DNA of 64,000 bases from Chitinophagaceae bacterium (GCA_028288585.1 JAQBNL010000001.1:1-64000), one strand, 5' to 3'. Positions 26,204 through 52,643 are shown, counted from the stretch's first letter. The notes: generated from the sequence alone by a model not told the origin. Program-made: numbers and translations.

Positions 26204-26227
26204 TGCAAAAATTTAAAATTAAAAAAA

Positions 26228-28320: not shown

Positions 28321-28329
28321 AGATTAGCC

Positions 28330-29515: not shown

Positions 29516-29568
29516 AACAGTATTATCCCCGACCTGAAGGTTGTGGCAATTAAAGAATCAAATTTAAA

Positions 29569-31761: not shown

Positions 31762-31787
31762 GCAACCATCTGCTATACTTATCCGTA
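31762..31787 (+). promoter_or_regulatory. Putative ECF-type promoter P1: GCAACC-N16-CGTA
   Basis: GCAACC(31762-31767)-ATCTGCTATACTTATC-CGTA(31784-31787), 23 nt before the sugar transferase ATG. Confidence 0.7.
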
Positions 31788-31810
31788 TTGAATTGCAAGA
31801 ATGATATTGC

Positions 31811-32578
31811 ATGGATAAAATTTCTTTACCGGGTAATTTTTCTCAATCTTTTCCGGATATATCTTCAAAAGAAGAAAATTTTACAGCTATTAATCCTGTA
31901 AGGATTACCTGTGAGAATATTTATTTAAACAGAGAAAATTTAAATACCCAACTGCCAGGTAGTACAATACCGCTGGAAAACATTTGGAATTTTAGTATAA
32001 AGCGTTGCTTTGATGTTTTACTCTCTCTTATCTTAATTGTATTTATACTTTCATGGCTTATTCCGCTTTTAGCCATATTAATAAAACTGGATTCGCGGGG
32101 GCCCGTTTTCTTTTTGCAAAAAAGAAATAAAAATGGCGGCCGTTTGTTTACCTGTATAAAATTTCGCAGCATGTTTGTAAATAAAGATGCGGATACATTA
32201 GTTGCCTGTGAAAATGATAAAAGAATAACACGGTTTGGAAAATTTCTGCGCAACTACCATGTAGATGAGCTCCCCCAGCTTTTTAATGTGTTAACCGGCG
32301 ATATGTCAATTATTGGCCCCCGCCCACACATGATAAGTGAAAATCTACTATACGGCAACCTGCTTCCGGAGTATACTTACAGGCATACTGTAAAGCCCGG
32401 CATTACCGGGCTCGCTCAATCCCTCGGTAACTTTGGTTCCACTAACAGCCTGGAAAAAGTAAAGGAAAGAGTGCGCCTTGATATCCTGTATATAAATAAA
32501 TGGTCTTTGGGTATGGATATAAAAATTCTATTCCGCACCTCATTAATAATGTTAGGCTTTGCGGAGATTAATAAATAA
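31811..32578 (+). CDS. Undecaprenyl-phosphate sugar phosphotransferase (bacterial sugar transferase family)
   Basis: KRCFDVLLSLILIVFIL, GPVFFLQKRNKNGGRLFTCIKFRSM, RFGKFLRNYHVDELPQLFNVLTGDMSIIGPRPH, KPGITGLAQ. Confidence 0.93.
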   Translation: MDKISLPGNFSQSFPDISSKEENFTAINPVRITCENIYLNRENLNTQLPGSTIPLENIWNFSIKRCFDVLLSLILIVFILSWLIPLLAILIKLDSRGPVFFLQKRNKNGGRLFTCIKFRSMFVNKDADTLVACENDKRITRFGKFLRNYHVDELPQLFNVLTGDMSIIGPRPHMISENLLYGNLLPEYTYRHTVKPGITGLAQSLGNFGSTNSLEKVKERVRLDILYINKWSLGMDIKILFRTSLIMLGFAEINK

Positions 32579-32619
32579 CAATTTTTTACCCGGATTTATA
32601 TCATATTCAATGAAAATAA

Positions 32620-34281
32620 TTGAAGCAGACTATAAAAAATATTCTTACAATTCTCACACAAAAAGAAAAAAAGAAATTTTTTAAGCTTGTTATATTTGAT
32701 GTTATTATCAGTGCATCGGATATATTATTTTTAATTGCGCTGCTGTTTGTTATAAACTTCTATACCCAGTCACATCATTCACTAAAATTTTCAAAATTTC
32801 CTTATAACACTTTTGAGAGATACCCGCTCCTGTTGATAACAGCCTTCTTTATTTTATTCAGCATAAAAAACCTGTGTGGGTTTTTTATTTTCAGTATGCA
32901 GTATAAGTTTGTATATGGAGTGGCATCCAGGCTGTCAAAAAATAAATTATTACATTACCTGGAAGGAAGTTACAGCGATTATATTAATGTTGATTCCGCA
33001 GTTTACACACGCAAAATAAGTCAGCAACCAATTGAATTCAGCCACTATGTATTAAGAGGGCTGCAACAAATTATCAGCCAGGCAGTATTAATTTTCTTTA
33101 CCGTTATTGCTGTAATTATTTTTAATATAATATTATTTCCCCTGCTTTTTCTTATACTGGTACCGCCAATATTTTTGCTTGCCCTAATAATGAAAAAGAA
33201 ACTCAGTGCTTCCCGTATTTTAGGTAAAAGCACCAGTGAGAAAGCAATTCAACATTTAAAGGAAGCTTTGGCAGGCTTTATCGAAAGCAATATTTATGGC
33301 AAAAGAGATTTCTTTACAGGGAGGTATCATAAGTTCCAGTCAAAACTAAACAGCTATCTTTCTGAACAGCAGGTTATACAAAATTTACCACCACGCTTAA
33401 TTGAAGTTTTTGCAATTTTTGGATTATTACTGCTGGTACTACTAAATTCTTACCTCACAAACTCACAAACAATTACAGTAATAACTATTGGAGCTTTTAT
33501 GGCAGCGGCTTATAAAATAATTCCCGGCATTGTAAAAATTTTAAACAGCATGAGCCAGATAAAAACGTATTCATATACCACTGCTGATTTGTTGAAGGAT
33601 ACAGATTGTAAAATACAACAACGCCCCAATACGGGAGCCATACATTCAATAGAATTTGCTAAAGTATGCTTTGGATATGAAAAGAAAGCAGTAGTAAATA
33701 ATTTTTGTTTAACAGTGAATAAAGGAGATTTTATTGGCATCGCTGGCAGGTCAGGAAAAGGAAAAACAACATTAATAAATCTATTGCTTGGCTTTTTAAC
33801 CCCTTCCAAAGGGAATATTCTTATTAATAATATTTCAACAAAAGATACAGACAGGAAAAAATACTGGGGGCGTATTTCGTATGTAAAGCAATCCGCATTC
33901 CTTGTTCACGATTCTATTTTAAAAAACATTACGCTTGAAGAAAATGAATATGACAGTAAAAAATTTGCCCAGGTAATATCAGTTACCGGCGTTGATGAGT
34001 TGATAAATACTCCAGGCAATGTTTTGAATATAAATATAACAGAAGATGGAAAAAATATCAGCGGCGGCCAGCGCCAGAGAATTATTCTTGCCAGGGCCTT
34101 GTATAAAGATTTCGACCTTCTTATTTTGGATGAACCTTTTAACGAGCTTGACGGGGAAGCTGAAGAGCAGCTATTAAGACATCTTCAACAAATATCGGGA
34201 GAAGGCAAAACGGTTGTGCTTATCACGCATAATAAAACAGCACTTTCTTTTTGCAATAAGAAAATTAACCTAGATGAATAG
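32620..34281 (+). CDS. ABC transporter, fused permease/ATPase (TTG start as given by the track)
   Basis: Multi-TM N-terminus; Walker A GRSGKGKTTL, signature ISGGQRQRIILARAL, Walker B LLILDEPFNELDG. Confidence 0.9.
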   Translation: MKQTIKNILTILTQKEKKKFFKLVIFDVIISASDILFLIALLFVINFYTQSHHSLKFSKFPYNTFERYPLLLITAFFILFSIKNLCGFFIFSMQYKFVYGVASRLSKNKLLHYLEGSYSDYINVDSAVYTRKISQQPIEFSHYVLRGLQQIISQAVLIFFTVIAVIIFNIILFPLLFLILVPPIFLLALIMKKKLSASRILGKSTSEKAIQHLKEALAGFIESNIYGKRDFFTGRYHKFQSKLNSYLSEQQVIQNLPPRLIEVFAIFGLLLLVLLNSYLTNSQTITVITIGAFMAAAYKIIPGIVKILNSMSQIKTYSYTTADLLKDTDCKIQQRPNTGAIHSIEFAKVCFGYEKKAVVNNFCLTVNKGDFIGIAGRSGKGKTTLINLLLGFLTPSKGNILINNISTKDTDRKKYWGRISYVKQSAFLVHDSILKNITLEENEYDSKKFAQVISVTGVDELINTPGNVLNINITEDGKNISGGQRQRIILARALYKDFDLLILDEPFNELDGEAEEQLLRHLQQISGEGKTVVLITHNKTALSFCNKKINLDE

Positions 34282-35329
34282 TGCCTCCAACACATTGATA
34301 ATTCTTACTCCCGGGTTTCCTGCAAATGAAGCAGACACAACCTGTCTTCCACCACAGCAAATACTTGTAAAAGCTTTAAACAAAATTTATCCCCACCTGG
34401 ATATTATTATTTTAACGTTCGAATATCCTTTTTTTAAAGGCACCTATAAATGGAATAACAATACCATTATTAGTTTCAACGGATGGAAAAAAGGAAAGGT
34501 TTCTAAATTACTGGTATGGTATTCTGCCTGGAGAACATTGAAAAAAATAAAAAAGGAAAATAATATTGTTGGGATAATTAGTTTTTGGTCAGGTGAATGT
34601 GCATTGATAGGAAAATACTTTGCGAAGCTTCACAGGATAAAACAATACACCTGGATACTGGGACAGGATGCAAAAAAAGGCAATAAATATTTTTCATTAA
34701 TCAAACCTTCTGCTGATAGCCTGGTTGCGGTGTCTGATGGTATTGCTGAAGAAGTTTTTAAAAATTATACTGTTAAACCGGCGCATGTTATTCCAATCGG
34801 GATTGATGTTTCAATGTTTACACAGCGCCAATATAAACGGGATATTGATGTATTGGGCGCAGGCTCATTTATCAAATTAAAAAGGTATGATTTGTTTATA
34901 CAGGTTATAAGTGAACTTATTTTCGATTTCCCTGGAATAAATGCACTCGCCTGCGGAAAGGGGGATGAAAAGGATAAACTGCAGAACCTTATCCATGATT
35001 TAAATCTACAAAACAATGTAAAATTAACCGGTGAAGTAGGTCATCTGGAAGTAATCCACCTGATGCAGCGGGCAAAAATTTTTCTCCATACATCATCTTA
35101 TGAAGGTTTTGGCTCAGTGTGTTCCGAAGCTTTGTATGCAGGCTGTCATGTAATTAGTTTTTGCAAACCAATGAAGAAGAATATTGAACACTGGCATATA
35201 GTTAATTCCAAAGAGGAGATGATAAAAAAGGTATGTGACATTTTAAAGGATTCTCATATAGAACATAACCCGGTATTATTTTGCCCGGTAGAAAATACGG
35301 CAAAATCATTTATGGAGCTATGTAGATAA
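34274..35329 (+). CDS. Glycosyltransferase family 4-like
   Basis: VSDGIAEEVFKNYTVKPAHVIPIGIDVSMF and HLMQRAKIFLHTSSYEGFGSVCSEALYAGCHVIS. Confidence 0.87.
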   Translation: MNSASNTLIILTPGFPANEADTTCLPPQQILVKALNKIYPHLDIIILTFEYPFFKGTYKWNNNTIISFNGWKKGKVSKLLVWYSAWRTLKKIKKENNIVGIISFWSGECALIGKYFAKLHRIKQYTWILGQDAKKGNKYFSLIKPSADSLVAVSDGIAEEVFKNYTVKPAHVIPIGIDVSMFTQRQYKRDIDVLGAGSFIKLKRYDLFIQVISELIFDFPGINALACGKGDEKDKLQNLIHDLNLQNNVKLTGEVGHLEVIHLMQRAKIFLHTSSYEGFGSVCSEALYAGCHVISFCKPMKKNIEHWHIVNSKEEMIKKVCDILKDSHIEHNPVLFCPVENTAKSFMELCR

Positions 35330-36412: not shown

Positions 36413-36486
36413 AAAGAGAAATATCAACAATCAACGACTGTTACGAAAATACGATATAAACAATCGCTAATTTTACGGGATACATT

Positions 36487-37206: not shown

Positions 37207-38138
37207 AGTCTCTGCTAAAGAAAATATTATTTGGAGATACGGCAGTAACCGAATATTCAACAATAACAATTGCAGGAGATATAAAGGAAAAAGCATACCT
37301 GCAAACTGCCTGCCAGGCTATTGATATTTCTACTGTTCACTGGCTGCTCTGCCTTGAACCCATAGTGATTGGTATATGGTTACAAAATCCGGAAGAAATA
37401 AAAGCGCTAAACACAAGTACAAGGCTTAAAATAATTTTTACTGATTCGGCAGGTGTAAATAAAAATACTACTGCCGTATTGGAGCTTCATCTGTTTAACA
37501 GCATTGAAGAAAATAATGGAACGCTTTTTTTGCTTAAGCTCACAAAATGCAAATTGCATCACCTCAATTTTATAAAAACACGTTTATTATTTTCCCGCTA
37601 TTATAAAAAGCCCGGTTTATCATTTAAGAAATTTAAATCATTAGTAGCCGGGTATAGCTATCCAAGAAAAGTAAGAATAGTGTCTTTTAAAGAAGAGAGT
37701 TATTATAATATTTTTCCAATGGACCTGGTGGGAGATATAAGCCACGTGAATCGATTTGTATTTGGACTAAGGCATACCAATATTGCACTTTCAAAGATTA
37801 TTGCCGCCGGCAAGCTTGTAATATCAGAGATATCTTATGAACATAAAAATATTATTTATCAATTGGGTAAGCATCATGGCGCCAGTCCGCCTTTAATTGG
37901 TGACCTGCCTTTTAAAGTGAGACAAACCAAAACCTATGGTTTTTATATTCCTGAATTTCCAGACAGCTATAAGGAGATTAAAATTCTTAAAACGCTCAAT
38001 TTAGGAAGTCATATGCTTATGTGGGGAGAAGTTATTAATGAAGAAGTATTAAAACCTCTTTTACCCGGTTTGTATCATATTCACTTTTTGCAATACCTGC
38101 ACCAGCAGGCAAAAGGATTTAACTATCCTTTGGTGTAA
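37203..38138 (+). CDS. Flavin-reductase-like (FMN split-barrel) protein, tentative
   Basis: YPRKVRIVSFKEESYYNIFPMDLVGDISHVNRFVFGLRHTNIALSKIIAAGKLVISE resembles flavin reductase-like domains; no close family recognised. ATG at 37203 overlaps the upstream stop. Confidence 0.45.
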   Translation: MKSLLKKILFGDTAVTEYSTITIAGDIKEKAYLQTACQAIDISTVHWLLCLEPIVIGIWLQNPEEIKALNTSTRLKIIFTDSAGVNKNTTAVLELHLFNSIEENNGTLFLLKLTKCKLHHLNFIKTRLLFSRYYKKPGLSFKKFKSLVAGYSYPRKVRIVSFKEESYYNIFPMDLVGDISHVNRFVFGLRHTNIALSKIIAAGKLVISEISYEHKNIIYQLGKHHGASPPLIGDLPFKVRQTKTYGFYIPEFPDSYKEIKILKTLNLGSHMLMWGEVINEEVLKPLLPGLYHIHFLQYLHQQAKGFNYPLV

Positions 38139-39298
38139 CTGGAAAATAAAGCAGGGGTATTGATGGGAAATATGGCTCTTGAATTAAAACTTTTAATATC
38201 CTTTATGAGCTTAGGTAAATTTCCCTGCACGTATTTATAAGCACCGTTAATTTCTATTTTAAAAAAATCTCTGAAAGCAAAATTTATTTCTTTTAACTGT
38301 GGGTACAGGCTTTCATCAAAAAGACGAATATTTCCTCTCTGTATCACCATAAGAATACTTTCAGGATTTACAGAGTAAAAGGAATTAAAGGAATTGTTTG
38401 CAAGCGTAACCACTATATCGGCATCCATTTTATTTTCAATAATCCCGGAATCGAGATTCCATATGGACGCAGGGATTGAAGTAACCATTTCAAAAAGTTC
38501 CGTATCATTTACAAGTCCCAATTCTCTTGCCTTTCGTAAATGGTCCCATATATTCCAGTTACTGGTTAATGTAGAATCAGTTCCAAAACACACCTGGGTT
38601 CGTTGTTTTAACCCGGCTACCCGTGCTGTTTTTTTTAATAAAAAATCATTTGACTGGGGACACCAAACCAATGCTTCAAATTTTGCCGCCTGTTCTTCGC
38701 TCATTGCAACACCGTGTATGGCTATTAATTTCCTGTTTAAAAAATTATATTTTATAAGTTCATCAATCTCATTATTTGCGTTAACCGTTGTTCCCTCTCC
38801 TGCATGAATAACACAAGGTTTATTTTTTTTAAGAGGATTATTAAGTTTTAGCTTCCAGTATTTTTCAAATTCTACTGAATGTAAGTTTTGCGTTTTTTGT
38901 AAAACATTAATCAGCGGCTTATTTATCTGCAAATATTTACCATGATTTACAACTGTTGTAACACCTGCTAAAAGATTTTTGTAAATCCCCCATTCAATTC
39001 TCAGTGGTTCCGGAATCTTTAAGACTTCAATAATTTCAGTTTTATACGTTTGCAGAATTGTATTTCCCCATTCAATATAACTCTCATATACCCGGTTACC
39101 CATTTGTGGAAAGCAATTAAAATCTAAATGGTCATGCGAATTAATAAGCCCGGGAAAAGCCAGCGCTTTATCAAAGTGCAATTGAAACGCATCGTCACTA
39201 CTATTTAAAACATTTGCTACAGCAACAATCTTTTCGCCGGTAATATTTATGCTGACTGCTTCATCACTGTTAAGAAGGCATACATTATTTAATACCAT
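38123..39298 (-). CDS. Amidohydrolase-superfamily metal-dependent hydrolase
   Basis: FPGLINSHDHLDFN, VIHAGEGT, LIAIHGVAMSEEQ, CFGTDSTLTSNWNIWDHLRKAREL. Confidence 0.82.
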   Translation of the reverse strand: MVLNNVCLLNSDEAVSINITGEKIVAVANVLNSSDDAFQLHFDKALAFPGLINSHDHLDFNCFPQMGNRVYESYIEWGNTILQTYKTEIIEVLKIPEPLRIEWGIYKNLLAGVTTVVNHGKYLQINKPLINVLQKTQNLHSVEFEKYWKLKLNNPLKKNKPCVIHAGEGTTVNANNEIDELIKYNFLNRKLIAIHGVAMSEEQAAKFEALVWCPQSNDFLLKKTARVAGLKQRTQVCFGTDSTLTSNWNIWDHLRKARELGLVNDTELFEMVTSIPASIWNLDSGIIENKMDADIVVTLANNSFNSFYSVNPESILMVIQRGNIRLFDESLYPQLKEINFAFRDFFKIEINGAYKYVQGNLPKLIKDIKSFNSRAIFPINTPALFSSYTKG

Positions 39299-40037
39299 TG
39301 ATTCGTTTTAAATGCATTCCATAAATAACGGGCATGCCTTTAAACTTTTCAAAAACATGCAGGGCTTTTTGTTTTGTATAATATTCTTTCACTGAATCAT
39401 CCACATATCTTTCCTCCTCCCTTTGAACAGTAAGCCCGTTTTTATAAAAAATTTTTTTTATTGTATCCGGCGGGTGAATATAATTGGTAACATAAAAATG
39501 CTTTTGTTCATGGGTAAAACTTCTCCTCCCCCCTTTTGCCAAGATACCAGGATGAAAATCCGTAATGATTATTTCGCCATCATTTTTTAATATTCTGCAC
39601 CAGGCATTTAGCGCTTCCTCAATATTTTTAATATGGGCAATCGTCAGCGTGCAAATAATAATATCATAGGAAGCGCCAGGTATATCTTTAAAAAGATTAT
39701 CGGTAATGCAGGTGGTTACAGATTGCGGAAATTTTTGTTTCAATACAGCAAGCATTCCGGCAGAAATATCAAACCCGGTTAATTGTGCAGGACCACCAGC
39801 ATAAATTTTTTTCCAGTGCCTGCCTGTGCCGCAACCGATATCAGCAACTGATTTATTTTTTACAGCCAGGTTATTAACCAGTTTAGAAAATATTATCTCA
39901 TCCAAATCCAACATCAGGTTTCCGGGCTGGTTATCATAAGTATCTGACCATAAATTATAGGCCTCCCCCGGGTTTTTTTCTACAGCAAAACCATTATTGC
40001 CGGTAATTAGTTTTTTAAGGCTGGTAAGTGCCTGCAT
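39285..40037 (-). CDS. Class I SAM-dependent methyltransferase
   Basis: SVADIGCGTGRHWKKI, YDIIICTLTIAHIKNIEEALNAWCRILKNDGEIIITDFHP; overlaps the amidohydrolase start. Confidence 0.88.
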   Translation of the reverse strand: MQALTSLKKLITGNNGFAVEKNPGEAYNLWSDTYDNQPGNLMLDLDEIIFSKLVNNLAVKNKSVADIGCGTGRHWKKIYAGGPAQLTGFDISAGMLAVLKQKFPQSVTTCITDNLFKDIPGASYDIIICTLTIAHIKNIEEALNAWCRILKNDGEIIITDFHPGILAKGGRRSFTHEQKHFYVTNYIHPPDTIKKIFYKNGLTVQREEERYVDDSVKEYYTKQKALHVFEKFKGMPVIYGMHLKRINGIK

Positions 40038-40064
40038 AAATTCAATAAGATTTATTCATATACA

Positions 40065-40089
40065 TACGGGCTGCATGTAAAATGGTTGT
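40065..40089 (-). promoter_or_regulatory. Near-match ECF-type promoter P5: ACAACC-N15-CGTA on the minus strand
   Basis: Minus strand ACAACC-ATTTTACATGCAGCC-CGTA, 27 nt before the methyltransferase ATG. Confidence 0.45.
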
Positions 40090-40102
40090 GCGTTAAACGC
40101 AC
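40088..40102. repeat. Perfect interrupted palindrome GTGCGTT-A-AACGCAC between divergent promoters
   Basis: 7-bp arms around one central base; lies between P5 (minus) and P2 (plus). Confidence 0.6.
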
Positions 40103-40110
40103 TTTTAAAG

Positions 40111-40136
40111 GCAACCTATAGTCATTAAAAGTCGTA
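40111..40136 (+). promoter_or_regulatory. Putative ECF-type promoter P2: GCAACC-N16-CGTA
   Basis: GCAACC(40111-40116)-TATAGTCATTAAAAGT-CGTA(40133-40136), 39 nt before the radical SAM ATG. Confidence 0.7.
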
Positions 40137-40175
40137 TTTACAGATAACAGAACTTATAACCCTGGCTTAAAGAAC

Positions 40176-41675
40176 ATGCATACTATTTTATTATTCAATC
40201 CCCGCAGCGCTGTAGCCAAACACAGGATACCTAACTCTATTTTAAATATTGCTGCCTCTGTAGAAGGAAAATATGAATGGGTAATTGTTGATGGCAACCG
40301 TGAACAATATCCTCTTGAAAAAATAAAGGAACACCTGCACAGCGGAACTATTAAATATGTAGGCTTTACTGTAATGCCGGGACCGCAATTAAAGCAGGCA
40401 ATTCCTTATTCAAAATTTATTAAAGAACATTTTCCAGGAATTACTATTATTTGGGGAGGCTATTTTCCCACCAATCAATACAGGTCAGTACTCACATCAG
40501 GCTATGTTGATTTTGTTATTAACGGGCCCGGCGATAATTGCTTTCCGAAATTGATTGATGCTCTTGAAAATAACAAACCCTATGAACTGATTAAAAATTT
40601 AATTTATAAATCGGGAGACAATATTATAAAAACAGTGAAGGAAGACCTGATAGAACAGGATATATTAAACCCCCTGCCATATAATAAACTTAACAGCATT
40701 TATCCCATAGAAAAATATCTTGGCAAAACTTATTTAGGTGAAAAAACTTTGGCTTATCATTCCAGTATCGGTTGCCCGTTCACCTGTTCCTTTTGTGCAG
40801 TGGTTCCCACTTATGAAGCAAGATGGAAAGCTAAGTCTGCCCAATTGGTTTATAAAGATGTGAAATATATAAAGGACCACTGGGGTGCTGATGCTATAGA
40901 ATTTCATGATAACAATTTCTTTGTGTCAGAAAAACGCACCGTTGAGTTTTGTGAATTAATAAAGAAAGAAAAGATGCAGTGGTGGGGAATGGCAAGGATA
41001 GATACCATGTCAAAATTTAAAGATTCATCACTGGCACTCATGCGTGAGGCAGGATGCAAAATTATTTTTTTTGGAGCCGAGAGTGGCAACAATGCCATAC
41101 TAAAACAAATGGATAAAGGCGGTACACAAACTGGGGAACAAATAGCAGAGTTTGCTGCAAGAATGAGAAAGTTTGATATTATTCCTGAATATTCATTTGT
41201 GCTGGGGACACCCGCCGCCACTGCTGAAGAAGTAGATAAACAAATTGATTTTGAAATTGATTTTATCAGGAAGATAAAGTATATTAATCCTGACACAGAA
41301 ATTGTATTATATACATACAGCCCTGTACCTACAGAAGGTTCTGAATTATATAACCAGGCAATAAGTAAAGGATTTTCGTTTCCCCAAAAGCTGGAAGACT
41401 GGATAAGTCCGCAGTGGGAAAATTTTGATATGCGTAAGAACCCGCTTACACCATGGCTCACTGCTGAAATGATTGATAAAATAAGAAATTTCGAAATTGT
41501 TTTAAATGGTTATTATCCAACGGTAACAGATATCAGGCTGAACAATTTTAAAAGAAAAATAATACAGGCGGTTTCAGGAATGCGGTATAAGATTAATCTA
41601 TACAAACATCCTTACGAAATAAAATTACTGCAAAAGCTTTGGAAGTATCGCCAGCCGGAAATACAGGGGTTTTAA
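40176..41675 (+). CDS. B12-binding-domain radical SAM protein
   Basis: Radical SAM motif SSIGCPFTCSFCAV (CX3CX2C); N-terminal region with IIWGGYFPT typical of B12-binding/BchE-like radical SAM proteins. Confidence 0.9.
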   Translation: MHTILLFNPRSAVAKHRIPNSILNIAASVEGKYEWVIVDGNREQYPLEKIKEHLHSGTIKYVGFTVMPGPQLKQAIPYSKFIKEHFPGITIIWGGYFPTNQYRSVLTSGYVDFVINGPGDNCFPKLIDALENNKPYELIKNLIYKSGDNIIKTVKEDLIEQDILNPLPYNKLNSIYPIEKYLGKTYLGEKTLAYHSSIGCPFTCSFCAVVPTYEARWKAKSAQLVYKDVKYIKDHWGADAIEFHDNNFFVSEKRTVEFCELIKKEKMQWWGMARIDTMSKFKDSSLALMREAGCKIIFFGAESGNNAILKQMDKGGTQTGEQIAEFAARMRKFDIIPEYSFVLGTPAATAEEVDKQIDFEIDFIRKIKYINPDTEIVLYTYSPVPTEGSELYNQAISKGFSFPQKLEDWISPQWENFDMRKNPLTPWLTAEMIDKIRNFEIVLNGYYPTVTDIRLNNFKRKIIQAVSGMRYKINLYKHPYEIKLLQKLWKYRQPEIQGF

Positions 41676-41685
41676 TAATAACCGA

Positions 41686-42447: not shown

Positions 42448-43490
42448 GTACGCAATCATTATATCACACCTATAAACGGTACCGCACTTTACAAACGGAT
42501 ACCATAACTGCATTACCAATTGTTATACTAATGCCGCATAGTGCCTGCAATTGCCGCTGCGTTATGTGTGATATATGGAAAGGCAATAAGAACCTGAAAC
42601 AACTAACTGAGCCGGATATAACCGGGCTGCTTTCATCGCTTAAAAAATTTGGAACCAAACAGGTTGTCATGTCGGGGGGAGAAGCTTTGCTCAATCCGAA
42701 TTTCTTTCGCTTTTGCCGGATACTGCAACAGGAAAATATAAAAGTCACTTTATTATCAACAGGCCTTACGCTTAAAAATAATGCGGAACAATTGGTAACC
42801 CTTGTGAATGATATTATTGTTTCGTTAGATGGAAATGAGGTTTTGCATGATACAATAAGAAACATCCCCGGCGCCTATTCAAAAATGAAAGAAGGGATTG
42901 CAGCCATACGGGCAATTGATAAGGATTATAAGATAACCGGCAGAACGGTTATCCATAAACTTAATTATCAATGGTGGCCGGGTATAATTGATAGTGCAAA
43001 GGAATCAGGTTTGGACCAAATTAGTTTTTTGCCCGCAGATGTAAGCAGTGAGGCATTTAATCGTGAGGTTAAATGGGATGCACCACGACAGCAGGAAATC
43101 ATAATTCCAAAAGATGAACTGCCTGTTTTGGAAACAGTAATTGAACATCTTATAACAACATACAAAGAAGATTTTGACAATGATTTTATTGCAGAATCGC
43201 CGGAAAAAATTCAGAAGATATACACGTATTACAGTGCCTTGCACGGAATAAATTCTTTCCCCTATAAAAAATGTAATGCACCCTGGGTATCAACGGTTAT
43301 TGAAGCGGATGGCTCGGTGCGGCCATGTTTTTTTCACCCAACAATTGGCAACATACGGGCCGGGGCATTAAGTGATATTCTTAATAGCCATGAGGCAAAA
43401 CAATTTAGAAAAACGTTGGATATGGATACTAACAGTACCTGCGTTAAATGTGTTTGCTACTTAAATCTTTCACCCAATACCAGCCTGTAA
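42444..43490 (+). CDS. Radical SAM protein with SPASM-like C-terminus
   Basis: SACNCRCVMCDIW (CX3CX2C), VVMSGGEALLNP, C-terminal CNAPW...GSVRPCFFHPTIGNI...CVKCVC. ATGA overlap with upstream methyltransferase. Confidence 0.9.
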   Translation: MSTQSLYHTYKRYRTLQTDTITALPIVILMPHSACNCRCVMCDIWKGNKNLKQLTEPDITGLLSSLKKFGTKQVVMSGGEALLNPNFFRFCRILQQENIKVTLLSTGLTLKNNAEQLVTLVNDIIVSLDGNEVLHDTIRNIPGAYSKMKEGIAAIRAIDKDYKITGRTVIHKLNYQWWPGIIDSAKESGLDQISFLPADVSSEAFNREVKWDAPRQQEIIIPKDELPVLETVIEHLITTYKEDFDNDFIAESPEKIQKIYTYYSALHGINSFPYKKCNAPWVSTVIEADGSVRPCFFHPTIGNIRAGALSDILNSHEAKQFRKTLDMDTNSTCVKCVCYLNLSPNTSL

Positions 43491-43495
43491 AACAA

Positions 43496-44959
43496 ATGAA
43501 GAAGATACTTTTTTCTCATTCCTATTTTTTACGCTTCGATCCCAAGCAGTGGTCAACAGGCCAGCCCTATGCACCATTAGGAACTTTGTATGCTGCGGCT
43601 TTAATGAGAGAAAATGGTTATGATGTTTCTTTATTTGATGTGATGTTTTCCCACCAGCCTGAAGAAGTGATTGCAGCTTTGGATGAACAGCAGCCGGATT
43701 TTTTTGTGATGTATGATGATGGCTTTAACTACCTCACAAAAATGTGCCTTACCAATATGCGTGAAGCTGCCTTTAAAATGATAAAACTTGCAAAACAAAA
43801 AGGTTGTACCGTAATTGTTTCCAGCTCTGACTCCACAGACCACTATGAACAGTATTTAAATGAAGGAGCAGATTTTATTTTGATAGGTGAAGCAGAATTT
43901 ACATTGCTTGAATTGGTGCAGTCTATTACAGGAGGGAAAAATAATTTTACAGCAATACAAGGGCTTGCTTTTAAAGATAGTGATGCACTGATAAAAACTT
44001 CCAGGCGAACAGTTATAAAAGAGTTAGATACTTTGCCGTTACCCGCCTGGGACCTTATTAATATAGAGCCCTATAAGCAGTCGTGGCTAAAACATGCAGG
44101 CTATTTTTCTATGAATATGGCCACTACACGGGGATGTCCTTTTAAATGTAACTGGTGTGCAAAGCCGATATATGGTAATCGCTACAATTCAAGATCTCCA
44201 GAAAATGTAATTAAAGAACTAAAATTATTAAAAGAGAAATACCAGTTTGATCATATCTGGTTTTGCGATGACATTTTTGGGTTGAAACCCGGATGGGTAA
44301 ATGAAATGGCAGCGCTTGCAGAAATGGAAAGATTACAATTCAGATTTAAAATTCAATCCAGGGCAGACCTGTTAGTACAGGAAAATTATGTTACAGCATT
44401 AGCCCGTGCCGGCTGCGAAAATGTTTGGATAGGTGCTGAAAGCGGCTCACAAAAAATACTGGATGCAATGGATAAAGGAATTACTGTTGCCCAAATATAT
44501 AAGGCCGTAAAGCTTTTAAAAGAGTATGGTATTAATCCTTCCTTCTTCATACAGTTTGGATATCCCGGCGAAACCAAAGAGGATATAAAACTCACTATGA
44601 AGATGATAAATGAATTACTGCCCTATGAAATCGGCATCTCTGTTTCTTATCCTTTACCCGGAACGGTATTTTATGAAAAAGTAAAACTGCAATTAAAAGA
44701 AAAAGCAAACTGGACCGATTCAAACGAGATGGCATTGATGTTTAAAAATACTTACCAGCCTCAATTTTATAAGCAACTTCACAGGTACGTTCACAAAAGT
44801 TATCGAAAACATTTAGCATTCGAAAACCTGCTTAAACTGTTTATGTACCCGCTAAAGGCAAATTTATTTACGCTAAAAAAAGCGCTTTCAGGTTTATATT
44901 ATCTGCCTGCAGCATTTATTGAAAAAATTAAATTAAACCATTTAGAAAAGGCATTATGA
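43496..44959 (+). CDS. B12-binding-domain radical SAM protein
   Basis: Start moved to MKKILFSHSYFLRFDP; TTRGCPFKCNWCAKPIYGNRYNSRSPENVIKE, GAESGSQKILDAMDKGI. Confidence 0.9.
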   Translation: MKKILFSHSYFLRFDPKQWSTGQPYAPLGTLYAAALMRENGYDVSLFDVMFSHQPEEVIAALDEQQPDFFVMYDDGFNYLTKMCLTNMREAAFKMIKLAKQKGCTVIVSSSDSTDHYEQYLNEGADFILIGEAEFTLLELVQSITGGKNNFTAIQGLAFKDSDALIKTSRRTVIKELDTLPLPAWDLINIEPYKQSWLKHAGYFSMNMATTRGCPFKCNWCAKPIYGNRYNSRSPENVIKELKLLKEKYQFDHIWFCDDIFGLKPGWVNEMAALAEMERLQFRFKIQSRADLLVQENYVTALARAGCENVWIGAESGSQKILDAMDKGITVAQIYKAVKLLKEYGINPSFFIQFGYPGETKEDIKLTMKMINELLPYEIGISVSYPLPGTVFYEKVKLQLKEKANWTDSNEMALMFKNTYQPQFYKQLHRYVHKSYRKHLAFENLLKLFMYPLKANLFTLKKALSGLYYLPAAFIEKIKLNHLEKAL

Positions 44960-45777
44960 TTAAACCATTTTCTCATAATGAACAACAGGCCGAAGCTGCC
45001 TTTACATTACAGGCGCTAAATTTTGATGAATTATACAATGCCGATACAATTATACAATACAAAAGAAAACGTGTAAGAGATCATTTGATGCAATATCTGC
45101 AACCGGGCAGTTCCATCCTGGAGTTGAATGCCGGAACCGGTGAAGATGCAATATTTTTTGCACGGCAGGGGCATCATATTCATGCAACCGATATATCGGC
45201 AGGAATGCAGCAGGTATTAAAAGAAAAAGCAGGAGCCTGTAATTTACAAACCAATATAAGTAACGAGTTGTGTTCTTTTACCCAACTTGATCAGCTACAA
45301 AATAAAGGTCCTTTTGACGCAATCTTCTCAAACTTTGCAGGGTTAAACTGCACAAGCGACCTGGATAAGGTATTAGCCTCTTTTGATGCTTTATTAAAAC
45401 CAGGAGGCACAGTAACCCTGGTTATTTTACCCAAATTTTGTTTGTGGGAAACGCTGCTTGTTTTTAAAGGGAAATTTAAGACTGCAACACGAAGATTTTT
45501 CAGTAACTACGGCAGAAAAGCAAATATAAACGGCAAGCACTTCAGATGCTGGTATTACGATCCTTCCTTCATCATATCGCAGCTAAAAAGCGCTTTCGGT
45601 TTATTAAGTATTGAAGGGCTATGCACTGTTGTACCACCATCTTATATAAATAAATTTGCAGAAAACCGCCCTAAGCTTTTTACATTTTTAAAAAGAAAAG
45701 AAAATGTATTAAAAACAAAATGGCCGTGGAAATATATTGGCGATTATTACATTATCTCCCTGGAAAAGAAGCAATAA
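44956..45777 (+). CDS. Class I SAM-dependent methyltransferase
   Basis: SILELNAGTGEDAIFFARQGHHIHATDISAGM, FDAIFSNFAGLNCTSDLDKVLASFDALLKPGG; ATGA overlap with upstream gene. Confidence 0.88.
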   Translation: MIKPFSHNEQQAEAAFTLQALNFDELYNADTIIQYKRKRVRDHLMQYLQPGSSILELNAGTGEDAIFFARQGHHIHATDISAGMQQVLKEKAGACNLQTNISNELCSFTQLDQLQNKGPFDAIFSNFAGLNCTSDLDKVLASFDALLKPGGTVTLVILPKFCLWETLLVFKGKFKTATRRFFSNYGRKANINGKHFRCWYYDPSFIISQLKSAFGLLSIEGLCTVVPPSYINKFAENRPKLFTFLKRKENVLKTKWPWKYIGDYYIISLEKKQ

Positions 45778-45785
45778 ACAAGCTG

Positions 45786-46739
45786 TTAATCGGCAGGCTT
45801 CATTACTATTATTTTTTTATGTAACAATTCAAATACTTTTCTCTCGTACTGGTCAATAAATTTATTTTGAAAATTTTTAGGATCCGGCTTTGCGCAAAAT
45901 TTAGTTGCGCACATCCCCATAATCAGCCCGCGGGAATTTAGTTTTCTCTCCTGTGTTTTTTTAAGCCATCTTTTTGAAGTTATATTCATCAGTATATTAT
46001 CCAGCATATTACCAATAGGATTACTTAACATTTTTTCTACCAGCCATTTTATCGCGGGATTATTAATTTTTTTTGCTGAAGAAATCCGCATGTACTTATT
46101 CGGCAGAAAAGTTTTGATCCATGCATTATCAGAATAAAATTTTTCAAAAGACGCACTGCCCTGCAAAGGCAGCAATGTAGCAATTTCAGTGGCTGTGTAA
46201 ATATTTTTTTCAGCAATTTCAACATGGTCTTCTTCGATAAAATAATTCATGCAATAAAAATGTTGCTTATTAACCAGGAAGGTTAATTTTTTAAAACAGT
46301 GCATAAATGTCCTGGCAAGCCATAAACGATTTTTAGCTGTTATAATAAACAGGTCAATATCAGATGTATCATCTGCAAAATTTTTAGAAAGCGATCCGGA
46401 AACAGCAACTCCTCTTACAAATGGAAACTTTGCCAATCGTGAGGCCACTGTTTTTGCTGTTATCAAAAGCTGCTGCGCTTTGTTATTCCCATTATTTCTT
46501 CTTTGAGCAATTGAATAGTTATTTTGTAAGCTATAAAATTCGGCCAGCTTAAAAATTAAAGAGCCATCAACCAATGCCTGCAAAGTCATTTCAAATTCCG
46601 CATGTTCATAAAAATTAGGAAGAAACAACCATATCTCTCTTTTTTGTAACGGGTATGTAAAAATATCAAAATACGCAAGGGTTGATAATATATCATTTTT
46701 TATCAGCAAATAACGATTGTAGCTTTTAGAAGGATTCAA
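45786..46739 (-). CDS. Nucleotidyltransferase-fold protein (Pol-beta-like)
   Basis: FPFVRGVAVSGSLSKNFADDTSDIDLFIITAKNRLWLAR: GS...DxD nucleotidyltransferase motif. Confidence 0.75.
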   Translation of the reverse strand: MNPSKSYNRYLLIKNDILSTLAYFDIFTYPLQKREIWLFLPNFYEHAEFEMTLQALVDGSLIFKLAEFYSLQNNYSIAQRRNNGNNKAQQLLITAKTVASRLAKFPFVRGVAVSGSLSKNFADDTSDIDLFIITAKNRLWLARTFMHCFKKLTFLVNKQHFYCMNYFIEEDHVEIAEKNIYTATEIATLLPLQGSASFEKFYSDNAWIKTFLPNKYMRISSAKKINNPAIKWLVEKMLSNPIGNMLDNILMNITSKRWLKKTQERKLNSRGLIMGMCATKFCAKPDPKNFQNKFIDQYERKVFELLHKKIIVMKPAD

Positions 46740-46778
46740 AACCGGAGTATTTTTAAGTGATAGCTTCTTATAATTAAG

Positions 46779-46803
46779 AACGGGTAATCAGTTTAAAGGT
46801 TGC
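46779..46803 (-). promoter_or_regulatory. Near-match ECF-type promoter P6: GCAACC-N15-CGTT on the minus strand
   Basis: Minus strand GCAACC-TTTAAACTGATTACC-CGTT, 39 nt before the nucleotidyltransferase ATG. Confidence 0.4.
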
Positions 46804-46819
46804 CTTAGCAAGGCTTACC

Positions 46820-47965
46820 TCATTCAGTAACGTATGTTTGATTAAAAATAATTTCCTTAGTGTTTTTTACTGCATAGCATTCATAAAAAAACTGCTCATA
46901 ACAATTAATGATCATTGGCCAGTTAAATTCGCTGCCTATCTTTTTATAATTATTGCTGATCATCATTTCCTCCTGTTGGTTCCTGGCTGAATGCTGTATG
47001 ATCTTATTAATATCTGAAGCATCAGTAAAAAAAATTGCATCATTATTAAGAACAGATTTATTAAAAGAATTATTATGAGCAGCAATGAAAGCCTTGCCTG
47101 CCATAGCTTCCAATAAAGAAGGATTGGTTCCGCCAACGCTGTGCCCATGAAAATAAATGTAAGAGTAAGCAATCAGCTTTCTTACCGTTCTATTATTAAA
47201 TATTGAGCCGGCAAATTTAATACGCTCATCATTTTTATATTTATTTATAAGATATTTCCCAAACCCGTTTTTTGTATTACCGATAACAACAAAAGTTTTA
47301 TCGCAATCTGTTTGATGAAACCCATCGAGAATCATTTCTATATTATTCTCAGGCTCCATACGGGCTACTAACAGGAAATATTTGTGTTTTGCTATTTTAT
47401 ACCAGGAAAATACATCTTCATTTGTGTCATTAATGATTTCTGCTCCATAAGGAATGTATTTGGTATTAATTTTATATTTCTCATCCAGGTAGTTCTTTAT
47501 CATTAAGGAATCAGCTATAAAAAAGCCCCGTGATTTTATGGCAAGCTTTTCTGTATATAACAAAAATCTTCTCACAAGTGCTGAATATTTGGACCTTTTC
47601 CATTCAAGGCCATCCATGTTGGTAATTACTACAGCATTTGCAGGATACAAATTTTTCCAGATAGAACTGCTGGTATATCCAAGCATAAGAATAATATCAA
47701 AATTCTTTTTACGGGTATCAAGAATGCAATTAAGGTCATAAATAAATTGCCCGGCAGTTCCAATTAAAAATTCAGGATCAAAGCACCGGACAATCTGTAC
47801 GCCATTCCAGTTATTCTCTTTATACGGATGCTTATGAGAATTATAAACCGTTACAGCATGTCCTTTTTCAACCAGCCCTTTAGAAAGGTAGCCGGCAATT
47901 TGTTCAAAGCCTCCATAATTATTGGGTATACCTCTTGTTCCCAGTATGGCTATTTTTAGTGGCAT
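46820..47965 (-). CDS. Glycosyltransferase (DUF1972/rhamnosyltransferase-like)
   Basis: MPLKIAILGTRGIPNNYGGFEQIAGYLSKGLVEKGHAVTVYNS, GGTNPSLLEAMAGKAFIAAHNNSFN. Confidence 0.9.
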   Translation of the reverse strand: MPLKIAILGTRGIPNNYGGFEQIAGYLSKGLVEKGHAVTVYNSHKHPYKENNWNGVQIVRCFDPEFLIGTAGQFIYDLNCILDTRKKNFDIILMLGYTSSSIWKNLYPANAVVITNMDGLEWKRSKYSALVRRFLLYTEKLAIKSRGFFIADSLMIKNYLDEKYKINTKYIPYGAEIINDTNEDVFSWYKIAKHKYFLLVARMEPENNIEMILDGFHQTDCDKTFVVIGNTKNGFGKYLINKYKNDERIKFAGSIFNNRTVRKLIAYSYIYFHGHSVGGTNPSLLEAMAGKAFIAAHNNSFNKSVLNNDAIFFTDASDINKIIQHSARNQQEEMMISNNYKKIGSEFNWPMIINCYEQFFYECYAVKNTKEIIFNQTYVTE

Positions 47966-49049
47966 GATGTGTTTTCACATCTTTATACGCAATTTTGGTT
48001 TGAAGGGCTGCCTGTTGCCATGTATAATCAGTAAATATTTTTTTCCGCAGGGCCTCATTGTATTCCTGCAAAGAAGCCTTTTCTACGGCTGCGTAAATAC
48101 TTTCGGGCAATCCGGGGTCGCAATAAAACCCTGTTTCTTCAAAATATTCTTTAGCATCTCCTTTATTTGTAATAACCACATTACAACCCATCACAGCGGC
48201 TTCCAGGGAACTGAGACCTGTAGTTTCAAACCAACTCGGCAATACATGTACTTTTGCCTGTTGATAATATTTCAGCAATTCGTGTTGAGATACATGTTCA
48301 ATAAAATTGATATTATTGGCTGCAATTTTTTTACATTTTTGATAATACCCAAGCTGGTTAGGTGCAGGTGCGCCGATGAGCAATAAATTGAACTTTGTTT
48401 TATTGAGCGCTTTAATGAGGTTTATTTGATTTTTTATCCCTTCTATTCTTGCAACGCAGATAACCAGGCCACTATCTTTTTTTATAGTTTCATCAAAGTG
48501 AAATAATACAGGGTCAACTCCATTTGGAACAATAACATAATTATCGGCGTATTTATATTGATTGCTTATGCGTTCATATTCCAGTTTAGAATTAGGAAGT
48601 AACATGGAGGTTTTTTTCAATATTTTTTTTACAGCCCTGCGGTGACCTTTCAGAATATATGAAAAACTCATCAGCGCATCATTACCACGTAACCACCGGG
48701 CTAAAGTTTTAAGGTATTCGATACTATCAGCAGGTAACCATCTGAACAATACGCCTGCAATCCCTTTCCTGTAATGTTTATCATATTCACTATAATCAAT
48801 CAATATTGGTGAAACAACAAATGGTTTTTTAGATTTTTTTAAATGATAAAGAATATCTGCCGGGCGGGTAATATTAAAAAAATGAATCAGATCGTACCGG
48901 TTATAATCAATTGCTTCATCAGTTAATTTTATATCTGCTGTTACCCCAATAGCAGCAAGATGTTTGGCCGTTTCCAATACCTGCACCGTATCACCGCCTT
49001 TTGCAGTAAATAACGTTGCTCTTGTTATCATTGCCACTCTTATCATCAC
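47919..49049 (-). CDS. Glycosyltransferase family 4-like
   Basis: VIVPNGVDPVLFHF, VCVARIEGIKNQINLIKALN, HVLPSWFETTGLSSLEAAVMGCNVVITNKGDAKEYF. Confidence 0.9.
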   Translation of the reverse strand: MMIRVAMITRATLFTAKGGDTVQVLETAKHLAAIGVTADIKLTDEAIDYNRYDLIHFFNITRPADILYHLKKSKKPFVVSPILIDYSEYDKHYRKGIAGVLFRWLPADSIEYLKTLARWLRGNDALMSFSYILKGHRRAVKKILKKTSMLLPNSKLEYERISNQYKYADNYVIVPNGVDPVLFHFDETIKKDSGLVICVARIEGIKNQINLIKALNKTKFNLLLIGAPAPNQLGYYQKCKKIAANNINFIEHVSQHELLKYYQQAKVHVLPSWFETTGLSSLEAAVMGCNVVITNKGDAKEYFEETGFYCDPGLPESIYAAVEKASLQEYNEALRKKIFTDYTWQQAALQTKIAYKDVKTHHATKNSHTGNKRYTQ

Positions 49050-49055
49050 TTTTAA

Positions 49056-50282
49056 TTAACCCTTATAATATAATTTTCGGGAAGAAGCTTTTACATCAAA
49101 CTGCGGAAAAGCATTTGTAAAAGCCAATATCCATATTACATACTCAGCTATATTGGTTATAAAGCTTCCCGTAAACTGGTATAGAAAAATAAAAAGAAAT
49201 AACAGCAACCGGAAATAGTTTATCCAAACTCTTGTATAAAAAAACAGGAACAATTCAATCAATATCCTTATGCAAAAGCCTATCCATCCAAAGATAGCAA
49301 GCGTTTCAGCAGCTGCATTAGGTATGGCGATAGTGTTATAATCCAAGTCATACAAATAATAACTCCTGATAATATCACCTCCTAATATTTTAATCTGTCC
49401 CGGCCCAACCCCCCAGGCAGCGCTTTTCTTTTCAAGAATTTGATTAGCCAATATAAATGCATCTGATGTTCGCCCCTTACCCGATGTATCATGCCCTGTG
49501 ATAATATTTTCTAATCTTAAAAAGAAATTATTCCCCGGGAAAAATACAAGCACAATAAACAATACTGATAAAAAAATAACAAGGGTGAGTATGAAAATAT
49601 TTAATGCCCTTCTTTTTTGGGTAAGGGTTTTAAAATAAATAATATAAGTAAGAATAATTGCTACCATAACAGAAGCTATTACACCGATGGAAAAAGAAAG
49701 TATATAAGGCAGGAACAACATCATCAGCAATAGCCAGCTGTTTAATTTATTTTGCCTTAAAACGATCTGTAGAAAATAAAAGAAAAATAAAGGCGTAAAT
49801 AGAGTTGCATAATAAGATGCTTCGTATGTAAATAGCTTTAGCCTCTTAACATCACTTACCCCCTCTGTTAACGAACTTTTCATCCATAAGAGATCATCAT
49901 ACGAAGTAAAATAAATGGGGATCGCAATAAGGCATAGAATAAAATTGATCACTAATAATTTCCTGAATATTTTTTCAGGATCGGAACAGCTCTTTAAAAA
50001 TGTATAAAACGCCTGGCAAAAAATATAGACTGCAGTAAAATTTAAAACTGAGATCACATAACTTTTTATCTCGATCCCAAATATCAAATGCATAATAAAA
50101 AAAGGAGCCAGGCATATAAAGAAAGGCAGCAGGATCTCTCTTTTGCGTGAGGTAAGTATCCACCAATAAAATAAAGGACTTAAGATGGCTGTATAGGTTA
50201 AACCAAAAGGCAATGCCAATGCGTTTACAAAGAAGTAAATAAAAGCGAACGGGAGATACTTATTTATGCTCATGCCTGTCAT
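49056..50282 (-). CDS. O-antigen polymerase/ligase-like multi-TM protein
   Basis: About 10 hydrophobic segments; GVGPGQIKILGGD...NAAAETLAIFGWIGF, Wzy/WaaL-like C-terminal pattern. Confidence 0.7.
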   Translation of the reverse strand: MTGMSINKYLPFAFIYFFVNALALPFGLTYTAILSPLFYWWILTSRKREILLPFFICLAPFFIMHLIFGIEIKSYVISVLNFTAVYIFCQAFYTFLKSCSDPEKIFRKLLVINFILCLIAIPIYFTSYDDLLWMKSSLTEGVSDVKRLKLFTYEASYYATLFTPLFFFYFLQIVLRQNKLNSWLLLMMLFLPYILSFSIGVIASVMVAIILTYIIYFKTLTQKRRALNIFILTLVIFLSVLFIVLVFFPGNNFFLRLENIITGHDTSGKGRTSDAFILANQILEKKSAAWGVGPGQIKILGGDIIRSYYLYDLDYNTIAIPNAAAETLAIFGWIGFCIRILIELFLFFYTRVWINYFRLLLFLFIFLYQFTGSFITNIAEYVIWILAFTNAFPQFDVKASSRKLYYKG

Positions 50283-51243
50283 TTTTTAAGAACGCCAGCA
50301 TTCCTTTGTAAACGCCCCATGCTCTTTTCCACTGCCCCGTAACTATCCTTTTAATAAATCGTAATGTGACAAAAAAAAGCGCCATAGCCACTTTTGTCTT
50401 TTTGTATTTTGATAAAAAAAGCAAACCGTTACGTGTATAGTAATAATCAGCTAAAAAACTTTTTCCAATTGTAGTGCTGACCTTATCATAACAAACAGCA
50501 GTTTCGCAAACCTGTAATTGATACCCTGCCTGTTTAGCCCGGTAGCACCAATCCGTTTCTTCCCAATACAAAAAATAATTTTCAGGAAATAATCCCACCT
50601 CGTTAAAACTACGGACACTGGTAAACAATGATCCCCCGGAGATATAATCCAGTTCCGGGATGTCGCTTTTTTTTTCTATAAATTCAACCGTGGCAGAATT
50701 AAAATTTATTTTACCACCTGCATATAAATGTACTTTTTGCGGAGCATCATAATATTTTATAACTGAACCTATGATGGACCTGGGAGAAATTTTTTCAGCA
50801 AAAACAACAAGCCCGGATAAAGTTGTTTCCTCTACAACCATATCGGGGTTTAACAACCAAATGTATGCATCCTCATTTAAAAGTTTTTTCAATACAACAT
50901 TAATACCGCCTGCAAAACCTTTATTAGTATCATTCTGAACAAAATTCAACCTGGCAAACATTGAGGCTTCCATCCCCCTGCTTAATTCATCACTGTGAAA
51001 ATATTTGTATGGTACCGGTTTAATATTTTGTCTGGATGACGATAAAGAGTTATTAGGATTACTGCTATCATCAGCCCATCGCATCAAATACTCTAATGAT
51101 CTGTTTTGAGAAAAATTATCAATCACAATAACAGAATAATTATCGTATGCAGAACGAAATACTGACTCCAGGCATTCCACAACCTCTTCCCATTTTTTGT
51201 AGTTAAGGATTATGATGTATACGCCGGGCATATTATTTTCCAT
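50260..51243 (-). CDS. Glycosyltransferase family 2 (rhamnosyltransferase-like)
   Basis: VYIIILNYKKWEEVVECLESVFRSAYDNYSVIVIDNFS, NKGFAGGINVVLKKL, WLLNPDMVVE, FLYWEETDWCYRAKQAGY. Confidence 0.92.
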   Translation of the reverse strand: MENNMPGVYIIILNYKKWEEVVECLESVFRSAYDNYSVIVIDNFSQNRSLEYLMRWADDSSNPNNSLSSSRQNIKPVPYKYFHSDELSRGMEASMFARLNFVQNDTNKGFAGGINVVLKKLLNEDAYIWLLNPDMVVEETTLSGLVVFAEKISPRSIIGSVIKYYDAPQKVHLYAGGKINFNSATVEFIEKKSDIPELDYISGGSLFTSVRSFNEVGLFPENYFLYWEETDWCYRAKQAGYQLQVCETAVCYDKVSTTIGKSFLADYYYTRNGLLFLSKYKKTKVAMALFFVTLRFIKRIVTGQWKRAWGVYKGMLAFLKNDRHEHK

Positions 51244-51297
51244 TCACCAATATTTTTATTCTCAACATCAACAATCCTTTTGTATAAAAATTTTGAT

Positions 51298-52563
51298 TTA
51301 CAATGGCTGTGGTATTATATAACCTGTTAAATTATTATTACTAAGTTTCCAATTAAGACCGACCGTTATAAACAATTCAGTTATTATAATACTTATGGCT
51401 GTGCCTGTAGCTCCCCAAATATTTACGAACAAAATATTACATGCAATGTTTATGATCGTTCCCGCTCCAAGGATACTTAAATAACTTTTCTTACGGTTAA
51501 AAGCAATTAATAACTGGTAGGCCGGGATATTAAGGCAAACAATTACCGGTACAAAGCTTAACAACCGGAGTAATGAAACAGGTAATGTTGAAGTATCTTT
51601 AAGAAATACGTGTATAATCTCCGGCGATAAAGTAAAGAGCAGGCTGCAACCTGCAATCACCATTAAAAGAAAGGGCAGGTAAATTTGTTTTAAAAAAATA
51701 TTTACTTCGTCTTTGTTTTTGTGGCTAAGCTGGCAAATATGCGGATATACAACCTGTGAAAATAATGACAGTACCTGCCGTACCGTAAAAAAAATCTTTT
51801 CAGCAATACTATAATATCCAACAGTGAGATCGTTAGTAAATATCCTCAGTATAAAAACATTACTGTATAAATAAGTATTGATACAAAGATTAGAAATGGT
51901 GATCTGCCAGCCGTCTTTTATTTCATGAATGATATCTGCCCAATGAGGACGAAAAAATTTCAATTTAAAAATATGTACAGCAATACAAATGCTGAAAATA
52001 CCGGCCACCATATTTCCGATTCCATAAAAGAAAAGAAAAAGATAGCCATCTTCTTTATGGCGGATAAAAAATAAAACAAGGATAACAAAGATCAATCTTG
52101 CAATAAATGTACTGATGGTTATGAAATGCATTTTCTCAACTCCCTGGAAAAACCAGTTAACAAATAAAGACTGACCGATAACATAGGTAAAGCCAAGAAT
52201 ATATAATTGTGCGTTATGCCCAAAAACAGGAGTTAACAACGCAAGTACCATCAGCAATAGAAATAATAATGCTGTTATTAATAATTTGGAAGCCAGTACC
52301 GTAAAAAAAAACTTTGAAACTCTTTGGTTATCCTGCTTATACAATGCAATATCTCTTGTAGCAGTAAGATTAAACCCATAATCCGAAACAGAAGATAAAT
52401 ATATCATCAGTACCTGTCCAATAACCACTACTCCAAATCCGTCTGCGCCTATCGTAGTTATCACCAATGGCATAACAAGCAGGGGAAGTAACAGGTTTAT
52501 CCCCTGCACCATACCAATGGAAATAAAATTTGAAAACAGTTTCCTGTTATTAGTTCTTTGCAT
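51298..52563 (-). CDS. Polysaccharide flippase (Wzx/MATE-like, polysaccharide biosynthesis protein)
   Basis: Multi-TM protein; LPLLVMPLVITTIGADGFGVVVIGQVLMIYLSSVSDYGFNLTATRDIA. Confidence 0.88.
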   Translation of the reverse strand: MQRTNNRKLFSNFISIGMVQGINLLLPLLVMPLVITTIGADGFGVVVIGQVLMIYLSSVSDYGFNLTATRDIALYKQDNQRVSKFFFTVLASKLLITALLFLLLMVLALLTPVFGHNAQLYILGFTYVIGQSLFVNWFFQGVEKMHFITISTFIARLIFVILVLFFIRHKEDGYLFLFFYGIGNMVAGIFSICIAVHIFKLKFFRPHWADIIHEIKDGWQITISNLCINTYLYSNVFILRIFTNDLTVGYYSIAEKIFFTVRQVLSLFSQVVYPHICQLSHKNKDEVNIFLKQIYLPFLLMVIAGCSLLFTLSPEIIHVFLKDTSTLPVSLLRLLSFVPVIVCLNIPAYQLLIAFNRKKSYLSILGAGTIINIACNILFVNIWGATGTAISIIITELFITVGLNWKLSNNNLTGYIIPQPL

Positions 52564-52574
52564 TATGATATAAA

Positions 52575-52600
52575 TACGAAGATCAAATGTTGCAGGTTGC
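52575..52600 (-). promoter_or_regulatory. Putative ECF-type promoter P4: GCAACC-N16-CGTA on the minus strand
   Basis: Minus strand GCAACC-TGCAACATTTGATCTT-CGTA; CGTA ends 11 nt before the flippase ATG. Confidence 0.65.
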
Positions 52601-52617
52601 TTATGCCCGTTTTTAAA

Positions 52618-52643
52618 GCAACCTATTTACTTTAAATATCGTA
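52618..52643 (+). promoter_or_regulatory. Putative ECF-type promoter P3: GCAACC-N16-CGTA
   Basis: GCAACC(52618-52623)-TATTTACTTTAAATAT-CGTA(52640-52643), 56 nt before the Wzz-like ATG. Confidence 0.7.

Follow-up and report, generated by a model that had tools for sequence, protein, structure and literature searches.

The bipartite motif GCAACC-N16-CGTA, repeated across a polysaccharide/radical-SAM locus of a Chitinophagaceae bacterium, is very probably the −35/−10 promoter of a single ECF sigma factor. The predicted sigma gene lies unlinked to the locus, on contig C42, and its product is expected to control a regulon and to be released from an anti-sigma protein. The locus was analyzed in a window of DNA 64,000 nucleotides in length (GCA_028288585.1 JAQBNL010000001.1:1-64000).

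Predicted promoter sites in the window

An earlier note on this DNA had listed four exact copies of the motif and two near matches with a spacer of 15, and all six were present at their positions. Each exact copy is located between ORFs, is aimed into a gene, and is followed by the base that gives CGTAT. Dinucleotide shuffles of the window contained a mean of 0.06 exact copies and never the observed four. Relaxing the spacer to N14–18 produced no additional copies with exact boxes in the window. The sites were also scored with a matrix (PWM) made from sigma self-promoters alone, giving the following predictions.

31762..31787, + strand: predicted ECF promoter of unit 31811–35329; exact motif; PWM 24.0; 23 nt to ATG
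40065..40089, − strand: predicted ECF promoter of unit 40037–38123; ACAACC-N15-CGTA; PWM 19.0; 27 nt to ATG
40111..40136, + strand: predicted ECF promoter of radical-SAM/methyltransferase unit 40176–45777; exact motif; PWM 24.4; 39 nt to ATG
46779..46803, − strand: predicted ECF promoter of 46739–45786; GCAACC-N15-CGTT; PWM 22.3; 39 nt to start
47986..48011, − strand: weaker candidate internal promoter, glycosyltransferase 47965–46820; GCAGCC-N16-CGTA; PWM 18.3; 20 nt to ATG
52575..52600, − strand: predicted ECF promoter of unit 52563–46820; exact motif; PWM 18.7
52618..52643, + strand: predicted ECF promoter of unit 52700–54859; exact motif; PWM 22.1; 56 nt to ATG

These seven sites, namely the four exact copies, the two near matches, and the weaker internal site at 47986, are those with scores of at least 16; shuffles were expected to yield 0.1. 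All of them fall within 31.7–52.6 kb, and the other 43 kb of the window has none. Each points into its gene from 11–56 nt ahead of a start codon. Of the eight transcription units between 31.8 and 54.9 kb, six have at least one such site; the units starting at 36430 (−) and 36487 (+), inside the locus, have none. The internal site falls within the preceding gene, at its 3′ end. For the site at 52575 (−), the −10 box is close to the annotated ATG, just 11 nt away, which counts against its assignment.

The units served by these sites encode the following products, identified by Pfam and, for the radical-SAM unit, also by NCBIfam.

31811..35329, + strand: sugar transferase (PF02397), ABC transporter, GT4 glycosyltransferase
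38123..40037, − strand: amidohydrolase and methyltransferase
40176..45777, + strand: two B12-binding radical-SAM proteins, one radical-SAM/SPASM protein, two methyltransferases
45786..46739, − strand: nucleotidyltransferase-domain protein (PF01909)
46820..52563, − strand: glycosyltransferases, Wzy_C (sub-threshold; ligase/polymerase-like protein), GT2, polysaccharide flippase (PF01943)
52700..54859, + strand: 283-aa protein and Wzy_C O-antigen-ligase-type protein

All three radical-SAM proteins stay below the NCBIfam cut-offs, and the 283-aa protein has apparent membrane segments at both ends and no Pfam match. Directly upstream of the cluster, positions 25865–31007 hold a complete urease operon (gamma, beta, alpha, UreE, UreF, UreG, UreD) without the motif.

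The sigma gene on contig C42

The rest of the genome was searched by patterns and fetched stretches, so that weaker targets were missed. The exact pattern had 13 matches, compared with 9 for a reversed-pattern control. Taken alone this raw count is unremarkable; what is informative is where the matches lie and what surrounds them. In this blind search, one match fell immediately ahead of an ECF sigma gene that is on a different contig, which agrees with the suggestion of the earlier note that the regulator would be encoded elsewhere.

C42:18327–18893 (genome G000), − strand: ECF sigma gene, unlinked to the window cluster

Its 189-aa product matched PF04542 (Sigma70_r2), PF08281 (r4_2), and TIGR02937 (ECF superfamily) above cut-off. 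It has regions sigma2 and sigma4 only in about 190 aa, as ECF factors do, and the nearest solved sigma by sequence profile is Bacillus subtilis SigW (5wuq). The motif begins 55 nt before the ATG, placing an AAC-type −35 and a CGT-type −10 where an autoregulatory promoter would be. Among the ECF-like sigma genes of the genome, which were taken from 21 Sigma70_r4_2 matches that include some response regulators, the C42 gene is alone in having the exact motif upstream. An ECF gene at about 72 kb on contig C78, 8 kb past the window on the same contig, was set aside as the regulator, having no motif upstream.

Outside the window, matches L001, L002, and L009 lie within coding sequence and L007 within the start of a small ORF; their matrix scores were low (7.5–13.5). 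The other matches precede the C42 sigma gene itself and genes for two lipoproteins (one with a CHRD domain, one an S41 protease), a 301-aa exported protein, and a glutathione peroxidase whose start is signal-like. A CGTT variant (G000:C90:30109–30134) precedes a gene for a membrane-anchored OB-fold (tRNA_anti-like) protein. From these positions the regulon is predicted to take in exported envelope proteins as well.

Self-promoters of the sigma homologues

Among 84,980 species genomes scanned, 80 sigma homologues were found, of which nearly all carry the label Chitinophagaceae or Bacteroidota; the one record labelled Beijerinckiaceae is probably misbinned. The closest orthologues, including that of the window genome, all had GCAACC-N15/16-CGTA/T 25–162 nt upstream (13 of 13). 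When k-mers upstream of the 80 genes were counted without any prior motif, GCAACC ranked first, occurring in 69 of 80 (86%) compared with 7% for other genes, and the top pair was AACC-N15-CGTA. With the exact core before the C42 gene and before 66 of the 80 homologues, the earlier reading of the motif as an ECF promoter is well supported.

The 56 non-redundant self-promoters gave the consensus AG-GCAACC-(A/T)TTTT...CGTATT, which can also be written AGGCAACC-TTTT...N15/16...CGTATT; selection of the sites required the core, so the information content of the core is partly by construction, and that of the flanks, the position, and the frequency is not. The spacer was 15 in 36 of the sites and 16 in 20. 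The spacer of exactly 16 described previously therefore holds for the four exact copies in the window, but not as a fixed property of the promoter.

A predicted anti-sigma protein

The gene downstream of the C42 sigma gene, adjacent to and overlapping it, encodes a predicted membrane protein. An AlphaFold model of this protein contained helices at 10–17 and 28–36, a membrane helix at 53–73, a disordered, low-confidence stretch at 78–245, and a barrel at 250–441. Mean pLDDT for the whole model was 71.6 and pTM was 0.52; pLDDT in the barrel was mostly 90–98. The best structural matches found by Foldseek were OmpA/NspA. PF13568 was above cut-off in two orthologues and below it in the genome's own protein. 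The predicted architecture is thus that of a Dma protein, with an N-terminal region, one TM helix, a tether, and a C-terminal barrel. Gene order and architecture suggest that this protein is the cognate anti-sigma that inhibits the C42 sigma. Dma proteins of Bacteroides are said to be encoded beside ECF21 sigmas (PMC13088901), and the C42 sigma is a candidate ECF21 member through its pairing with a Dma-like gene.

A paralogous ECF sigma at L085:1430–1470, which also has a similar Dma-like downstream protein, is preceded by GGCAACTTTTT...CGAT. This suggests that the C42-type sigma and the L085 paralogue have sister promoter specificities differing in the −10 box.

Conservation and linkage in relatives

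Two of the tests proposed in the earlier note ask whether matches are as frequent in coding as in intergenic DNA, and whether the motif is conserved in orthologous intergenic regions. For the first, a subset of the matches in relatives was assigned by reading a hit table; 19 of 31 examined matches were in promoter position in sigma-bearing genomes, compared with 2 of 30 in genomes with no close orthologue. For the second, the motif was kept before orthologous cluster genes. In loci outside the window, sites were found before the first radical-SAM gene in six of eight loci and before the sugar transferase in five of seven. Together these 11 of 15 compare with 20 of 1330 other genes (p = 2e-16), although the locus rows are related to one another and Fisher values overstate their independence. 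The later genes of the radical-SAM and sugar-transferase units in these loci had no sites. This conservation supports, at the level of sequence comparison, the proposal that one regulon covers glycan assembly and the modification cassette.

Individual loci show the same arrangement. The sigma/anti-sigma pair of G012 (L165) and of G024 (L159) is directly upstream of the sugar transferase, ABC transporter, and glycosyltransferase orthologues, with a further motif between the anti-sigma and the sugar transferase; the pair is also linked to cluster orthologues at L160 (G024) and about 10 other loci. Flaviaesturariibacter aridisoli (L193), which is in culture, likewise has the sigma and the cluster together. 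In G012 (L166) the motif is 26 nt upstream of an 82%-identical radical-SAM orthologue. At L190 the orthologue of the nucleotidyltransferase-domain gene (46739–45786) adjoins the sigma/anti-sigma pair and has its own site. At L235 a site at 3060 (+) lies in the divergent gap equivalent to that of the 40065 site; the called ORF start is upstream of it, hence it was unscored for that gene. In G015 (L162:12320–12712) and G009 (L163:11969–12352) a second motif behind the anti-sigma precedes a gene for a cupredoxin-like lipoprotein, not the sugar transferase.

The first radical-SAM gene was found in 40 of 249 family genomes and occurred together with the sigma gene in 17 of the 249, where 7.9 were expected (p = 3e-4). 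A strong CGTA site preceded it in 8 of 16 genomes with the sigma and in 1 of 17 without; these rows, too, are related to one another. Two counts go against reading the sites as promoters of this sigma: of the 17 co-occurrence genomes, 10 have no demonstrated strong CGTA site before the radical-SAM gene (2 of these 10 were unexamined), and 23 of the 40 radical-SAM genomes lack the sigma at the chosen cut-off. Some of the latter have CGTT-type sites, which are possibly read by a diverged paralogue. A CGTT −10 box was seen ahead of radical-SAM orthologues, chiefly in genomes that have no close sigma orthologue (L167:15543–15568; L254:9926 and 15963; L294, L300, L301, L304, and L309), and in L254 it was also present before a diverged cluster-linked sigma (43% identical). 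Co-evolution of sigma clade and −10 box is possible.

One supported group of 25 in the sigma tree holds 10 of the 12 cluster-linked sequences and also the sigma of the window genome; the nearest relatives of the latter are unlinked to the cluster. The simplest reading of the tree is that the regulator gene left the cluster and the promoters stayed, and the reverse is also possible. In this genome and in G012 (C254) the OB-fold gene is unlinked to the sigma operon but still has the promoter, which points to an operon that dispersed while its regulon was retained. In L173 (G035; 12346–14650) the sigma operon is followed by OB-fold (tRNA_anti-like), cytochrome-c-like lipoprotein, YceI, and DUF5777 genes.

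Paralogous ECF factors have similar −35 elements and could cross-recognize one another's promoters. The promoters might be real but be read mainly by a paralogue, or by several redundantly. ECF-like sigma genes number well over a dozen in this genome, and several of them belong to one broad group; the GCAAC −35 is shared by promoters of paralogues such as L085, and in G287, G240, and G079 a more diverged sigma (44–47%) lies 5–17 kb from the radical-SAM gene. We nevertheless consider this improbable, because the C42 gene alone in this genome has the exact motif upstream and it is the close orthologues of the C42 sigma that are linked to the cluster. The element could also be a bipartite transcription-factor binding site, since two short blocks at fixed spacing could suit a dimer and initiation here is inferred from sequence. 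The blocks are neither repeats nor palindromes, and fit an ECF −35 (AAC) and −10 (CGT) with N15/16; moreover, the sites precede starts by 11–56 nt in gene direction and most of the homologous sigma genes (66 of 80) carry the motif, so that a factor site is very unlikely. Chance similarity of short motifs, to which the near-equal genome-wide counts of 13 and 9 might point, is scarcely credible given the clustering in the window (4 vs. 0.06), the independent matrix (7 vs. 0.1), the promoter positions (19/31 vs. 2/30), and the conservation before orthologues; the sequence statistics had already refuted it.

Proposed mechanism

The preferred reading is therefore that of a promoter for the C42 sigma. 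The sequence comparisons support the promoter, the identity of the sigma, and membership in the regulon. We infer that the sigma recognizes and uses these promoters, and that binding, signal, release, and transcription take the following course. The Dma-like anti-sigma would hold the sigma at the inner membrane until a cue from the outer membrane or the envelope, sensed by the barrel, frees it. The sigma, with RNA polymerase, would then transcribe its own gene, the glycan-assembly and radical-SAM units together, and the genes for exported proteins. A bolder and rather doubtful extension is that a protein spanning both membranes senses the outer surface and one sigma sets glycan assembly and radical-SAM output as a unit, forming a surface-to-promoter feedback that was kept after the regulator gene moved away.

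The proposal connects, across a bacterial family, a surface-polysaccharide/B12-radical-SAM cluster with a promoter sequence, with the sigma factor that would read it, and with a Dma-like anti-sigma, and gives a handle with which to turn on an otherwise uncharacterized cluster.

Comparison with known systems

The SigW consensus of B. subtilis is TGAAAC-N16-CGTA, with CGTA at −10. The motif described here has the same −10 and N16 spacer, but differs from SigW in its −35 box, GCAACC, in the type of anti-sigma, and in the phylum. The Bacteroidetes housekeeping promoter, TTTG / TAnnTTTG, read by sigma-ABfr (PMC7366714), is also bipartite and belongs to the same phylum, but its boxes are entirely different. 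No pertinent account of GCAACC promoters in Bacteroidetes came up in a literature search.

The closest parallel is the Das/Dma system of Bacteroides thetaiotaomicron, in which an ECF21 sigma is paired with a dual membrane-spanning anti-sigma (PMC13088901). As in that system, the sigma gene here is followed by one predicted to encode an N-terminal sigma-binding region, a single TM helix, a long disordered tether, and a C-terminal beta-barrel; the likeness to Das1/Dma1 (Dma1/Dma2) is one of predicted architecture. Both systems are confined to Bacteroidota, apart from the one record here that is labelled otherwise and probably misbinned. What has been described for Dma systems is an influence on outer-membrane vesicle output, on NigD1, and on polysaccharide-utilisation genes (PMC13088901). 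The targets predicted here differ: a cluster for surface-glycan assembly that includes a B12 radical-SAM cassette, together with other envelope proteins; a promoter consensus is defined as well. Dma-type regulators, which had been connected with vesicle production in Bacteroides, would thereby extend to the likely control of glycan assembly.
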